Positions 1 through 34,043 of a stretch of DNA of 64,000 nucleotides are shown piece by piece. Below the pieces are notes generated by a model, which was not told the DNA's origin, searched no databases, and worked only from the letters and a program-made list of their open reading frames with translations. Position 1 is the stretch's first letter, and each line of letters begins with the position of its first letter. The position numbers were made by a program, and so were the translations under genes. Origin of the DNA: Candidatus Poribacteria bacterium (GTDB taxonomy: Bacteria > Poribacteria > WGA-4E > WGA-3G); contig VXMD01000072.1 in the NCBI GenBank assembly GCA_009841255.1, forward strand, positions 1 to 64,000. The letters are read 5' to 3'.

Positions 1-74
1 TTGCAGGGGGGGGATTTGAACCCCCGTCCTCCGGGTTATGAGCCCGACGAGCTACCTGGCTGCTCTACCCTGCG
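1..74 (-). tRNA. tRNA-fMet (CAT), initiator
   Basis: The minus strand folds into a full cloverleaf. The acceptor strand CGCAGGG faces CCCTGC, the anticodon loop CTCATAA reads CAT, and the T-arm contains GGTTCAAATCC. The unpaired C1/A72 at the top of the acceptor and the GGG/CCC pairs in the anticodon stem mark an initiator rather than an elongator tRNA-Met. The 3' end coincides with the window edge, so whether CCA is encoded cannot be seen. It lies 23 bp downstream of tRNA-Leu and is probably cotranscribed with it. Confidence 0.95.
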
Positions 75-97
75 GCAAGAATCATTATGCTGAACCA

Positions 98-183
98 TGG
101 TCGAGGAGGGACTTGAACCCTCACGCCTGTTTAGGGGCGACGGATTTTAAGTCCGTTGCGTCTACCGATTCCGCCACTCGACC
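98..183 (-). tRNA. tRNA-Leu (TAA)
   Basis: The minus strand gives a class II tRNA: acceptor GGTCGAG pairs with CTCGACC, the anticodon loop CTTAAAA reads TAA (leucine), there is a long variable arm, and the T-arm contains GGGTTCAAGTCCC. The 3' CCA is not encoded (the sequence after the discriminator A is TGG). A strong promoter lies just upstream at 199-227. Confidence 0.95.
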
Positions 184-28259: not shown

Positions 28260-30617
28260 TTAAGAAACCAATAGTGTATACGTTTTCCCAACCTCTGTTC
28301 CGAAGGTGACAACCGACTCCGAGTGTTCCGTTTCAACTCGCATCCCATCGCACGTCACCGAAACGGTTGCGGTTGTTCGGACAGTGCAGTCTTCTCCCAA
28401 TGTGGAGTGGAGGTGCGCCTCGGTGAGTTTCCCATTTTCCCATGCCATTACGACTTCAAATCCGCCGCGAGCGCGCAATCCACTGACCCTTCCTCTGCTC
28501 CATGCCTTTGGAAGTGCCGGTAACAGGTGAATCTCACCCGCATGACTCTGAAGCAACATCTCTACGATGCCGGCGGTTCCTCCGAAATTTCCATCGATCT
28601 GGAACGGTGGGTGTGTATCAAATAGGTTTGTTAAGGTGCATTTCGCCAGAAGTGCCTGAAGGTGTGCGTATGCCGCCTCGGCATCCTCAAGCCGTGCCCA
28701 GAAGTTGACGAGCCATGCACGACTCCAACCCGTGTGTCCACCCCCGTGTGCTAAACGGTATTCCAACGATTTTTTTGCCGCTGCTGCTAACTCCGGTGTC
28801 CCGCGTAGTGTAATCTGGCAACTTGGGTGGAGGGCATACATGTGGGACATGTGCCGGTGTCCGGGTTCCGGTTCGTCGTAGTCAAAGACCCATTCTTGCA
28901 ACCGTCCCGTTTTCTCGCTAATCTGGAGCGGTGCGAGTCGTTCTAGTGCGGAAGCCAATTCAGCACGAAAGTCGTCATCTTCCTCAAGAACATCAAGGCA
29001 GGCGATACAGTTGGTGAAGAGTTCGTGAATAATTTCCAAGTCCATCGTTGCGGCGTAGGTGAAGAGAGAGCGTGTGCCGTCGAGCTTTAGGAAGCTATTT
29101 TCGGGTGAGTGTGACGGATTCGTGACGAGTTTACCAGCAAAAGGCGTACCTTCAGGTGCCTCAACGAGAAAATCGAGTATGAAGCGGGCGGCACCTTTCA
29201 TGAGCGGGTAGCCCTGCCCTATGAGAAAATCTTTATCGCCACCGAAAAGATAGTGTTCCCATACATGTTCACACAGCCACGCCGCGCCTACGGGCCAAAT
29301 ACCCCAAATGCCATCAGCAGGTGTTGTGAAACCCCATACATCGGAAAGATGATGAACAACCCAACCCTCGGCACCGTAATGACATTTTGCCGTGCGGCTC
29401 CCCGGTCCGACGAGCGTCTCCATATAATCGAATAAGGGGATATGGCATTCTGCGAGGTTGCAGACCTCGGGGACCCAATAGTTCATTTGGAGGTTGATAT
29501 TGGTATGGAAATCGCTATTCCACGGGGCATTCATGTGTTCGTTCCAGATGCCTTGCAGATTTGCGGGCAAGCCCCCGGGTCTCGAACTTCCCATCATTAA
29601 ATAGCGTCCGTACTGGAAGTAGAGGACAACCAGTCCCGGATCCAATGCGCCTGCTTTTACAGCTTCCAAGCGTTCATCGGTAGGGAGATTCTCGGCAGTC
29701 ACGCGATCACGACCATCGTGATGGCGTGCTTCCGCAGCAGCGTCGGTCGTACCGAGATCCAGATGCACACGTTGAAAGAGGTCCTGATGATCGGCAATGT
29801 GATCTGATCGAACTGTCGTATAAGGTTTTGGGTCAATATTCGTAAGATAGCTTTCGCAAAGGGCGTGCGGGTTTCCACTCGTATCGTTCTGATTAATGTA
29901 ACTCGTCGCAGCGGCGAGAAGAAGCGTCACAGCATTCGCGCCACGTACAGCAAGCCGGTTGTTCTCCGACTGGATCTTCCCACCCTCAATTTGCGCTTGT
30001 AGATACGCTGAGAAGCGCATTCCATCAGTGCCACATTGCCCGTCCAGTCTCAGGATATTCGCTGCAATCGCTTCAACAGTAGCATCTTGTTCCCGGGTGA
30101 TTGCGACGTCGAAAGCGAGTTGCCCTGCTGTGTCAGATTCAATTCTGAGGACAATGAGGTTGTCGACGGCTGTCGCAAAAATTTCTCTACTAAAATTGGC
30201 ATCTCCGCAGCGATAGGTTGTCTTTGCAATACCTGTGTTCAAATTTAACTCTCGGCGATACTCAGTAGGATCACCATCATGGGAGAACTCCAGAAACAGA
30301 TCGCCCAAGGATTGATAGGACTTAATACGTTCTGGTACGCCAAGCATCGTCTCACCGGCGAGTTTAGTGGCTTCTTCGTTTTGGTCATCAAAGAGTAGTT
30401 GCTGCACCTTCGGGAGTGCTTCCGAAGCCTTTGGATTGTTGGTGTCACGGGGACCGCCGTCCCAAAGCGTTTCTTCGTTGAGTTGAAGATGCTCTCGCTC
30501 CACACCGCCGAACACCATAGCACCGAGCCGTCCATTTCCAATGGGGAGTGCATCTGTCCATGCCTCGGCTGGTTTCTGATACCATAAAACAAGATTATTC
30601 GTGTCTGTGTTTGTCAT
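28260..30617 (-). CDS. GH95 alpha-L-fucosidase/galactosidase
   Basis: A glycoside hydrolase family 95 enzyme of about 785 residues. Family segments: [19 protein letters not shown] at the N-terminus, [19 protein letters not shown] in the middle, the substrate-binding [13 protein letters not shown], and [19 protein letters not shown] near the C-terminus. It inverts terminal fucose or L-galactose linkages. No signal peptide is seen, so it may act on imported oligosaccharides. The start at 30617 (MTNTDTNN) lies 21 bp from the IS element; the frame opens nine codons upstream inside the IS end, so any original promoter or leader has been separated by the insertion. Confidence 0.92.
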
Positions 30618-30647
30618 CAAAATCTTCGGTGTGGAGCCCCCCATGCT

Positions 30648-31676
30648 TTAGCAGGGGGAGGAAACACCGTCTTTGTAGTTGAAATTCAAGCGTGTGTGCA
30701 CTTGAAAATCTGTGCGTTTTGCACCGGTTGTTAATCGTTTGCCATCAAGACTATAGATAGAAAACAAACCTTTGGCATTGATACCCACAAGTCGGGTGAG
30801 TCCGTGCTTAACATGCTTTATCAAAGTATTTTTGGTTAATCCGTTTCCTAACACAGTGCCACCATAGCGTGGACGTTTACCCCCTTTTTGTGGGTTCTGT
30901 CTATGCAGTTCACGCCTCCGTATCGGTAGTGGCGATATACAGAATATATCGGTGGTGTCGGGTATCTCTGAACCGCCTACGGTGTGGTATGCCAAGCACC
31001 AACTATCAACGCAATGTGCATCAAAGGTTTCTGATAGCTTCTTTGAAGACTTCTTGAGACCGAGCCTATCGCATATCTCTTTGGTTTCCCACCCTTGAAG
31101 GGTTAGCAGTTCCCACCGCTTTTCTATTTCCGTATAGAACCACTGCTTCCCGACTTCCAAGGGGCTAAACGACTGATTCCACTTCTTAGCACGTTGTATT
31201 GTCCGTGCTTTGATGTCCTCAACACATACGTGTGTGATAGGATAGAGTTTGGATAGCCAATCCAGGATACGCATTTTCCAATCCCACCTCGCACGCGTGC
31301 CAGCGGGGACACGCTCTCTATTGGATAGGGTGTGCTTCTTGTGTTTGCGGTTTGGAGACTTCCGTGAGCGTCTGCCTCTCCGTAACACACGACGCTTTTC
31401 AACTTTTTTACCCACTTTATCATGGGCATCTGCTTGCACATTCAAATAGGTGTGTGCTTCTGATTTGACGGTAAAGCCCTCTTTCTTGCTACCCGGGTCA
31501 ACACCGACAGCAACTTCTTGAAAATATCTGTTAGAAGGCTCAACGTTGAGGCGGACGCAAAATACGCCATTCTTCCAAAAGGGGGTTGCCTTCTTATCGC
31601 GTATCCATTTTCTGGCACGCGAAGGCTTTGTCGGCATTAATGGATTTTGGTGCTTATCAACAACTCGAACAAACAT
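30648..31676 (-). CDS. isrB: IsrB-like RNA-guided OMEGA nickase (HNH-less IscB relative)
   Basis: A 342-residue protein. The PLMP domain opens it (NPLMPTKPSRARKWIR, 11-26), the hallmark of IscB/IsrB and absent from TnpB. The RuvC pieces are Asp60 (VGVDPGSKKEG), an Arg-rich bridge helix (90-115), Glu153 (VCVEDIKA) and Asp224 (DAHCVDSW). Only about 70 residues separate RuvC-II and III, leaving no room for an HNH domain. IsrB proteins are about 350 residues and nick DNA using an omega RNA. The ATG at 31676 has GGAG 11 nt upstream; 29 further upstream codons are in the presumed RNA region. The TAA stop lies within the right-end hairpin. Confidence 0.85.
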   Translation of the reverse strand: MFVRVVDKHQNPLMPTKPSRARKWIRDKKATPFWKNGVFCVRLNVEPSNRYFQEVAVGVDPGSKKEGFTVKSEAHTYLNVQADAHDKVGKKVEKRRVLRRGRRSRKSPNRKHKKHTLSNRERVPAGTRARWDWKMRILDWLSKLYPITHVCVEDIKARTIQRAKKWNQSFSPLEVGKQWFYTEIEKRWELLTLQGWETKEICDRLGLKKSSKKLSETFDAHCVDSWCLAYHTVGGSEIPDTTDIFCISPLPIRRRELHRQNPQKGGKRPRYGGTVLGNGLTKNTLIKHVKHGLTRLVGINAKGLFSIYSLDGKRLTTGAKRTDFQVHTRLNFNYKDGVSSPC

Positions 31677-31873
31677 CGTTTGTAAGTCTCCGTAGAGTTT
31701 GTATTGCCCCATCCAGATCGTAATATCAGCGTTTATATAGGACTTGGGGAGCATCCTAAACACCTTTGCGAACCACCACAGATACTACGATATTTTACTG
31801 TAGTAAAGAACTCAATCTTTGACAGGGAACGTCGGGTTACGCTAGGTCAAAGCACCCATGCTTTAGCAGGGTG
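31677..31873 (-). ncRNA. Candidate omega RNA of the IsrB element
   Basis: The roughly 195 nt between the left-end hairpin and the isrB start codon is where IscB/IsrB omega RNAs (HEARO RNAs) are encoded. On the minus strand it contains CTTTGAC...GTCAAAG (7-bp stem) just inside the end hairpin and a CAAAGGTGTTTAGGATGCTCC segment near the middle. The guide would be the host sequence just 5' of the element, toward the ankyrin gene. Boundaries and fold are not proven. Confidence 0.5.
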
Positions 31874-31923
31874 ATCTTTACTGACTATCCGTAATCCTAT
31901 AGGACTCGCGTATTGAACGACGA

Positions 31924-32736
31924 TCACCATGACCATCCCCTTCGTTCTCGGTGACGGCATAGCACTTTCACTGCCTCATGTGCTTTCTTCTCTGCCGCGA
32001 TATGCAAAGGCGTATGACCTTTATCGTCTTCAGCGTTAGCATCCGCTCCACTTTCTAACAGGATCAATGCCGTTTCATACGCATTGTGCTGTGCAGCAAC
32101 GTGTAAGGGGGTATCGCCATTTTTGTCCGTTGCGTTGATATCGGCGCCGTTTTTTACCAACACCGTTGCTACTTCAGAAGTGTCGTCTTCCGCCGCAATG
32201 TGTAATGGCGTACAACCATTTTGGTCTTTCGCGTTGACATCAGCGCCGTTCTCCAGCAGGACTACCGCTGTTCTATAGGCATTCCGCCACGCTGCCCAGT
32301 GCAGAAGCGTATAACCAGATTTGTTTCTCGGATTGACCTCCGCCTGGTCTTCGAACGAGGTTCCTTCTGCTTCATAAACATTGCGCCATGCTGCCCAGTG
32401 TAAAGGCGTGTCGCCATCTTCATTCTCTACGTTGACGTCTGCGCCATTTTCCAACAATATCGTTGCTGTTTCATGCGCATTATTCCACGCTGCCCAGTGT
32501 AAGGAAGTAAAGTCCTTATCGTTCTTCGCGTTGACATCAGCGCCATTTTCCAGCAATATTGCCGCTGCCTCATAAGCGTTATGCCATGCTGCCCAGTGCA
32601 GGGGAGGATACCCATATTCATCCCTTGCGTTGACATCAGCGCCATTTTCCAGCAATACTGCTACTGCCTCATAAGCATTGTCCCGCGCCGCATCATGCAG
32701 GAAAGTATAGTTAGATTTTTTCGCTATCCTTGCCAT
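31924..32736 (-). CDS. Ankyrin-repeat protein
   Basis: About 270 residues formed almost wholly of eight ankyrin repeats of 33 residues (pattern GDTPLHWAAWRNAYEAAxxLLENGADVNAK, several near-identical). Repeat 5 is divergent (EGTSFEDQAEVNPRNKS). No signal peptide or membrane segment. The ATG at 32736 overlaps the sulfatase stop by 13 bp, suggesting translational coupling. It ends about 50 bp from the IS left end with an atypical RHRERRGWSW tail. Ankyrin proteins mediate protein binding; in symbionts some act on host proteins, which is only a possibility here. Confidence 0.85.
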   Translation of the reverse strand: MARIAKKSNYTFLHDAARDNAYEAVAVLLENGADVNARDEYGYPPLHWAAWHNAYEAAAILLENGADVNAKNDKDFTSLHWAAWNNAHETATILLENGADVNVENEDGDTPLHWAAWRNVYEAEGTSFEDQAEVNPRNKSGYTLLHWAAWRNAYRTAVVLLENGADVNAKDQNGCTPLHIAAEDDTSEVATVLVKNGADINATDKNGDTPLHVAAQHNAYETALILLESGADANAEDDKGHTPLHIAAEKKAHEAVKVLCRHRERRGWSW

Positions 32737-34001
32737 GGAACACACCCCGCCTTTTGTGTTTCCGCCTGAAATAACTGACTCATTTCTCTAAAGAGATCTG
32801 CCTGCGTCTGTGAACCGTTTGTCGTTTCCAGTGGATCGCCTGACAAGTCGTAGAGTTCCAATGGCTCAAACGGACTATTGTGCAACAATTTAGTATCCCC
32901 ACGCCGTACGGCATGCTGACACTGCCCGAGAAACCGCTGTCCTCCCTCTCTTCGCAACCAGTAGAGGATGCGGTCAGAGAAGTCTTGCTGCTCCCCTTGG
33001 AGCGTTTGCCAAATGGAACGTCCTTCGATCTCATGCGTGATAGGAGCACCTGCTGCCTCGCAGACTGTCGGAAAAAGGTCCATCAGCAACGCAACCTGAT
33101 CGGTGACATGTCCCTCTGGAACGTGCCCGGGCCACATTGCACACGTCGGGACTCGGATGCCGCCTTCGTACATTTCACCCTTTTGCCCACGCAAGGGACC
33201 GTTATGCGCTCCAACGTCCATCGACCCACCGTTGTCAGAGGTATAGATAACGAGCGTATTGGATAACTGATCTGTTTCAACAAGCGTATCGAGGACTCGC
33301 CCAATGCCTGCATCCATGTGTTCAACGAGCGCAATGTATTTGGCGCGCTGTGGGGAAATACCCGGCTCGCGTTCCTGCACGCGTTCCACCCAATCGTCAG
33401 GCGGTTGGATTGGCGTATGTGGTGCATTATAGGCAAGATAGAGGAAAAAAGGTTGTGAGGATCGCGCCTGCGCGCGAATGAAATCCACACTCCAGTCCGT
33501 GAAGAGGTTTGTAGCGTGCCCCCGCGGATCGATCGTATCGAAGCCGTATCGCATGTAGTTGATGTCGTGCCGGAGATGCGTGTAGTAGTCATCCATCATA
33601 TCGCCGAGAAAGCCGTGAAAATGGTCGAAGCCCCGCTTACATGGATGATTCTCCGGTTCAAGTCCAAGGTGCCATTTACCGATGAGTGCGGTCCGATACT
33701 CCTTCTGCTTCAAAGCTGAAGGGAGTGTGACGGCGTCCTGTCGAAAATAGCCCCAACTGTTTTCTGGATGGGTACGGATTACGCCTGGCACTCCGGCTCG
33801 GTCGGGGTAGCGTCCGGTCATAAGGGAGGATCTACTGGGAGAACAAACGGAGGAATTGGCATAAAATTGGGTAAATCGTACCCCGTTTGCGGCAATTCTG
33901 TCAATATTGGGTGTCTGGATTGAAGGACCATTGTGAACTGAAATATCACCATAGCCGTGGTCGTCGGCGAGAATAAGAAGTACGTTCGGGGACTTCGCCA
34001 T
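32724..34001 (-). CDS. Sulfatase (formylglycine-dependent)
   Basis: A 425-residue type I sulfatase that hydrolyses sulfate esters. Cys53 in CSPSR is the residue converted to formylglycine; the metal-binding Asp13/Asp14 lie in LADDHGYGD, and TALIGKWHLG and TSDNGG supply further conserved residues. The ATG at 34001 has GGAG 6 nt upstream. No signal peptide is present, unlike many family members. It is followed by the ankyrin gene with overlap. Near the fucosidase, this suggests use of sulfated fucose-containing glycans, an inference from context. Confidence 0.93.
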   Translation of the reverse strand: MAKSPNVLLILADDHGYGDISVHNGPSIQTPNIDRIAANGVRFTQFYANSSVCSPSRSSLMTGRYPDRAGVPGVIRTHPENSWGYFRQDAVTLPSALKQKEYRTALIGKWHLGLEPENHPCKRGFDHFHGFLGDMMDDYYTHLRHDINYMRYGFDTIDPRGHATNLFTDWSVDFIRAQARSSQPFFLYLAYNAPHTPIQPPDDWVERVQEREPGISPQRAKYIALVEHMDAGIGRVLDTLVETDQLSNTLVIYTSDNGGSMDVGAHNGPLRGQKGEMYEGGIRVPTCAMWPGHVPEGHVTDQVALLMDLFPTVCEAAGAPITHEIEGRSIWQTLQGEQQDFSDRILYWLRREGGQRFLGQCQHAVRRGDTKLLHNSPFEPLELYDLSGDPLETTNGSQTQADLFREMSQLFQAETQKAGCVPWQG

Positions 34002-34043
34002 AACAATCTCCATGTTAACCTAAGCTGCTACTTTATATATTCG

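Follow-up and report, generated by a model that had tools for sequence, protein, structure and literature searches.

Positions 30618–31881 (minus strand) of the window, the 64,000-nucleotide stretch of contig VXMD01000072.1 that was analysed, hold a complete IsrB OMEGA element from a Candidatus Poribacteria genome. The best explanation, which we consider highly probable, is a non-autonomous IS200/IS605-type element that carries an IsrB OMEGA system and takes its guide from the left flank. The IsrB is of an already known type and it is the insertion habit that is informative: Poribacterial copies are often found precisely between the ribosome-binding site of a host gene and that gene's start codon.

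Ends of the element and host start codons

The ends were mapped by joining both flanks and searching across the genus for uninterrupted sites. In relatives G030 and G034 the joined-flank query spans the junction without a break, and continuous empty sites are likewise found in G008 and several other relatives. These sites define both ends of the element to the base and reveal no target-site duplication. The initial annotation had placed an element at 30638–31873; the element stands, while the empty sites give slightly wider limits. The hairpin with a bulged T that it described at both ends (CACCC-TGC-TAAA-GCA-T-GGGTG and CCCCC-TGC-TAAA-GCA-T-GGGGG) recurs at both ends in dozens of relatives, where its stems covary, and is therefore not due to chance. 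Homologous elements carry the hairpins at matching positions, one ~190 nt ahead of the ATG and the other at the isrB stop.

30618–31881, minus strand: whole element of 1264 bp, with its left end at 31881 and its right end at 30618
31853–31873, minus strand: left-end hairpin, SL1-like, with bulged T31858; all 7 pairs of helix 2 have two-sided changes
30638–30658, minus strand: right-end hairpin with bulged T30643, containing the isrB stop codon
30627–30669, minus strand: outer right-end stem CGGTGT/ACACCG, replaced in relatives by GCGGGCA/TGCCCG, GCGGGAT/ATCCC or CGGCAA/TTGCCG
30614–30617, minus strand: ATGA, the putative TAM, at which the GH95-like gene downstream also starts
28260–30617, minus strand: host gene, GH95-like, whose start codon abuts the element and whose start region is uninterrupted in relatives

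The host gene is presumably GH95-like, and the ORFs that adjoin the element at 31924–32745 and 32724–34013 are taken to be ankyrin-repeat-like and sulfatase-like. Two tRNAs lie at the start of the window (1–183). The second isrB copy of this genome, on C26, is flanked by CGGAGGAATCCC, a conserved ribosome-binding site, and by ATGAAAGCC; its site is empty in 19 relatives.

The four bases that abut the right end read ATGA in 63 of 81 copies, GTGA in 8, ATGG in 6, ATAA in 2 and ATAG in 2, or RTGA in 71 and RTGR in 77. These insertion sites point to an NTGA-like TAM, in agreement with the NTGA TAM of DtIsrB, the IsrB of Desulfovirgula thermocuniculi (PMC9581776). An RTGA motif explains why many insertions land directly 5' of host start codons, where they split the ribosome-binding site from the ATG and leave the coding sequence intact.

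About half of 80 insertions put the motif on a host start codon. An exact ORF start of at least 80 codons is present at 47 of the 80 distinct sites versus 18% of other RTGA sites, a Shine-Dalgarno sequence lies in the left flank at 40 versus 21%, and the two coincide at 34 versus 4.6% (P~2e-24, indicative because the start-codon counts come from related elements and a crude gene caller). The same simple caller assigns the 80 sites to 40 start codons, 20 intergenic positions and 20 gene interiors, and the other RTGA sites to 87, 623 and 4176, respectively.

It is an even bet that the bias reflects survival only, with harmful insertions lost and an RTGA motif that happens to include start codons, a reading compatible with the IsrB element proposed above. 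An insertion just 5' of an ATG does spare the coding sequence, and ATGA and GTGA are themselves forms of the motif. Outside gene interiors, however, start codons are still over-represented, with a start codon to intergenic ratio of 40:20 versus 87:623 (odds ratio ~14, indicative P~5e-20). Moreover, insertion is not obviously harmless, since a host Shine-Dalgarno sequence is present at 41 of 81 sites before insertion and at 2 of 81 after; mean predicted anti-SD pairing falls from -5.0 to -2.0 kcal/mol. Provision of a new Shine-Dalgarno sequence by the right end of the element was rejected as a candidate, as it is seen at 2 of 81 sites only.

Similar junctions are found beyond the Poribacteria. 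By eye, and with empty sites lacking, 9 of 16 viral relatives have an ORF-starting ATG at the right end, and on Leptolyngbya and Stanieria plasmids an annotated CDS start comes after the element. Literature searches on start-codon insertion of IscB, IsrB or HEARO elements found nothing. The original HEARO description reportedly places integration next to ATGA or GTGA, in which case the motif itself would be known.

The omegaRNA and isrB-free relatives

Covariation shows that a structured omegaRNA of ~205 nt lies upstream of isrB, and it is predicted to be expressed.

31677–31881, minus strand: omegaRNA scaffold, ~205 nt, left end to isrB start codon, based on a consensus fold of 45 homologues and its pair counts
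31688–31697, minus strand: terminal hairpin CTC-TACG-GAG holding the isrB Shine-Dalgarno sequence, helix 9 of the consensus fold
31882–31901, minus strand: predicted 20-nt guide, the host sequence directly left of the element, from the DtIsrB architecture (PMC9581776) and the boundary given by end mapping

Alignment A1 comprises 45 diverse homologues from the left end to the start codon. RNAalifold yields 38 pairs, 29 of which have two-sided changes, and once the nexus pseudoknot and the first stem are included these numbers rise to 49 and 34. Paired cells make up 93.7% in this fold, against 81.2% in shuffled and at most 42.3% in slid controls. The nexus pseudoknot includes a pair that is A-U in 28 sequences and U-A in 12, and the loop motifs of the adaptor (second) pseudoknot covary, GCCA with UGGC and ACCA with UGGU. 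Model R1, which itself includes the window sequence, matches exactly 31677–31881 with 159 bits. In columns 1–6 with 80–85 of A1, 19 of the 45 omegaRNAs share two mismatches in the first guide-adaptor stem, where the left arm GTCAA is opposite TTTTC rather than TTGAC.

The Rfam HEARO model (RF02033) has no match to the window RNA up to E=10, its gathering score being 83 bits. It is weak on two relatives (23–24 bits), and a single viral relative with IsrB, L257, exceeds the threshold. HEARO and R1 match the same places in viral-contig IsrB relatives; therefore, the two RNAs are linked by intermediates. Viral contig L240 (717–935, 2768–3004) has a second HEARO-like RNA ~2 kb upstream of its isrB element, which at 81.6 bits is just below the cut-off.

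Model R1 also detects omegaRNAs without isrB. One, in this genome (G000, C19:24591–24800; L170 2292–2501, minus strand), is an internally deleted IsrB element that kept its omegaRNA and right end and is inserted at the ATGA that begins an SRPBCC-like ORF. The others, from related genomes, form a class of ~410–575 bp (L171–L174, L181, L184, L185 and L187–L199) with the same right-end type and mostly inserted at RTGA. In this class an enlarged omegaRNA precedes conserved non-coding sequence that includes GUCAGGUC...GAAGCAGC, letters which the SRP RNA of the hosts also has. The flanks of the SRP-like core covary (GGGT/GCCC in 10 of 20, GTGT/GCAC in 8 of 20), and Rfam SRP models make no call on these elements. 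Their apparent resemblance to SRP RNA is a lead only.

Spread, mobility and proposed mechanism

Among 60 related genomes, all of them Candidatus Poribacteria MAGs retained from a genome collection and presumably derived largely from sponges, 37 carry an IsrB protein, many in multiple copies, with at most 22 matches each (at most 24 by profile). Relatives that are ~50% identical reside on cyanobacterial plasmids, in phages and on viral contigs. The earlier assertion that IsrB members are few is thus wrong. A search of this genome for copies of the same type, as had been advised, retrieves the second isrB copy on C26 and the internally deleted one on C19, for a total of two isrB copies and one deletion derivative. 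Equal-scoring copies within one genome suggest recent spread.

The element contains isrB only, with no Y1 tnpA inside. Subterminal hairpins, lack of target duplication and a fixed short target motif are all features of IS200/IS605; given that a Y1 tnpA of its own is missing, the element can be no more than a non-autonomous member of that group. The best Y1 gene of this genome is of another type, IS200-like, and there is no matching IS605-type TnpA. IS605-type tnpA genes with similar hairpins come from relatives only; most are followed by an ORF that we take to be of tnpB type, and the hairpins upstream of tnpA read like complement-strand hairpins of the isrB element. An IS605-type TnpA is likely to be needed in trans, and, from the sequences, mobilisation of this kind is plausible. 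At L061 (around 4054) and L210 (G018 C2:220545–222260) an IsrB element abuts an IS605-type tnpA start codon, an order that could pass for a single autonomous element.

The proposed pathway begins with a transcript that would start in the left flank, read across the left end and be processed into the omegaRNA. This RNA would consist of a ~20-nt guide from the adjoining host sequence on the left, followed by a ~205-nt scaffold that closes with the isrB Shine-Dalgarno hairpin. As DtIsrB and maintenance models for TnpB suggest, the complex is expected to recognise and nick the empty site. Once a Y1 transposase acting in trans had excised the element, this would favour repair from the filled site, or re-entry there, and the element would be maintained.

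Alternatively, the element could be a decayed passenger whose protein and RNA are nonfunctional and whose copies persist by chance. The low copy number in this genome, including an internally deleted copy, and the absence of a matching IS605-type TnpA are what this reading would predict; it is nevertheless improbable in the face of an open frame, invariant catalytic residues, a covarying RNA and several equal-scoring copies in relatives.

A broader proposal is that these IsrB elements are specialised for translation starts, such that the start codon serves as TAM, the guide corresponds to the host ribosome-binding region and the filled site alters host translation, and that the isrB-free, SRP-RNA-like omegaRNA elements spread as a bacterial counterpart of SINEs. 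We regard this as speculative and rather doubtful. The observations do raise the question of why start codons accumulate RNA-guided transposons and how the host genes are affected. They also provide a large, well-bounded natural IsrB set with exact empty sites, so that genomes themselves give the guide, target motif and scaffold with no need for guesswork, and compact candidates that pair a ~205-nt scaffold with a 342-aa putative nickase.

The IsrB protein and comparison with known systems

Sequence comparison supports assignment of the window protein as an IsrB with an intact RuvC triad and no HNH domain.

30648–31676, minus strand: isrB, 342 aa plus stop; start ATG at 31676, stop TAA at 30650–30648 within the right-end hairpin
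isrB residues, N-terminal part: PLMP ~1–50; RuvC I with D60; arginine-rich bridge helix ~88–112
isrB residues, continued: RuvC II with E153; short linker replacing HNH; RuvC III with H221/D224; C-terminal TAM-interacting region

In a phmmer search against solved structures, DtIsrB (8dmb) is the top match (E=3.9e-36, residues 5–315), and IscB proteins align with the N-terminal part only. A family profile likewise gives E=4.6e-43 for DtIsrB versus 1e-16 for TbaIscB. IsrB and IscB are the only strong structure matches, and no TnpB/OrfB family is matched. The initial annotation had called this an IsrB type with IS605-style ends, and its more specific claims are borne out as well. The PLMP domain corresponds to the sole Pfam family above its cut-off, RRXRR (PF14239, E=3e-29 over residues 3–157), and its LMP motif (13–15) is invariant in 53 homologues of 68–100% identity. 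The RuvC residues Asp60, Glu153 and Asp224, aligned to DtIsrB, are also invariant in this set, as is H221. No HNH family is found between RuvC II and III, or elsewhere, in any of the 53, and the short linker at this position aligns to that of DtIsrB.

An IscB from which HNH was recently lost, or a truncated pseudogene of an IscB, is a very unlikely alternative reading, for although IscB models and structures match the N-terminal half, the DtIsrB match is nearly full-length, HNH is found in 0 of 53 homologues, the NCBIfam IscB model reaches 83 bits, far below its cut-off of 175, the ~342-aa length is conserved and the catalytic triad is intact. AlphaFold models are poor (pLDDT 39 from the single sequence, mean pLDDT 57 from an alignment), and the domain claims therefore rest on sequence alignment. 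Foldseek with the pLDDT-57 model ranks 8dmb first (E=1.4e-15), a model too weak to count as independent proof. Alignments to DtIsrB end near residue 315, short of its TAM-reading R323 and Q326.

DtIsrB (PDB 8dmb, PMC9581776) is thus the system most like that of the window. The two share domain order, the RuvC triad and the short linker replacing HNH, as well as an upstream omegaRNA with a 5' guide, a terminal Shine-Dalgarno hairpin, nexus and adaptor pseudoknots, and NTGA. They differ in that the proteins are 27% identical in structural alignment, the window scaffold is ~205 nt versus 262 nt for DtIsrB (PMC9581776), and the host is a member of the Poribacteria. The IsrB hallmark, RNA-guided nicking of the non-target strand, is predicted for the window protein by analogy. 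HEARO/IscB elements (RF02033, PMC9755519) have the same left-end layout, GUCAacuaCCCC..hairpin..UUGAC; in contrast, the window RNA lacks a HEARO match and the window protein lacks HNH. Poribacterial IS200/IS605 TnpA-TnpB elements resemble the isrB element in their subterminal hairpins with CTTTAG/CTAAAG loops, but they carry tnpA and then a tnpB-like ORF, both of which the isrB element lacks, and the hairpin letters that match lie on the opposite strand to isrB.
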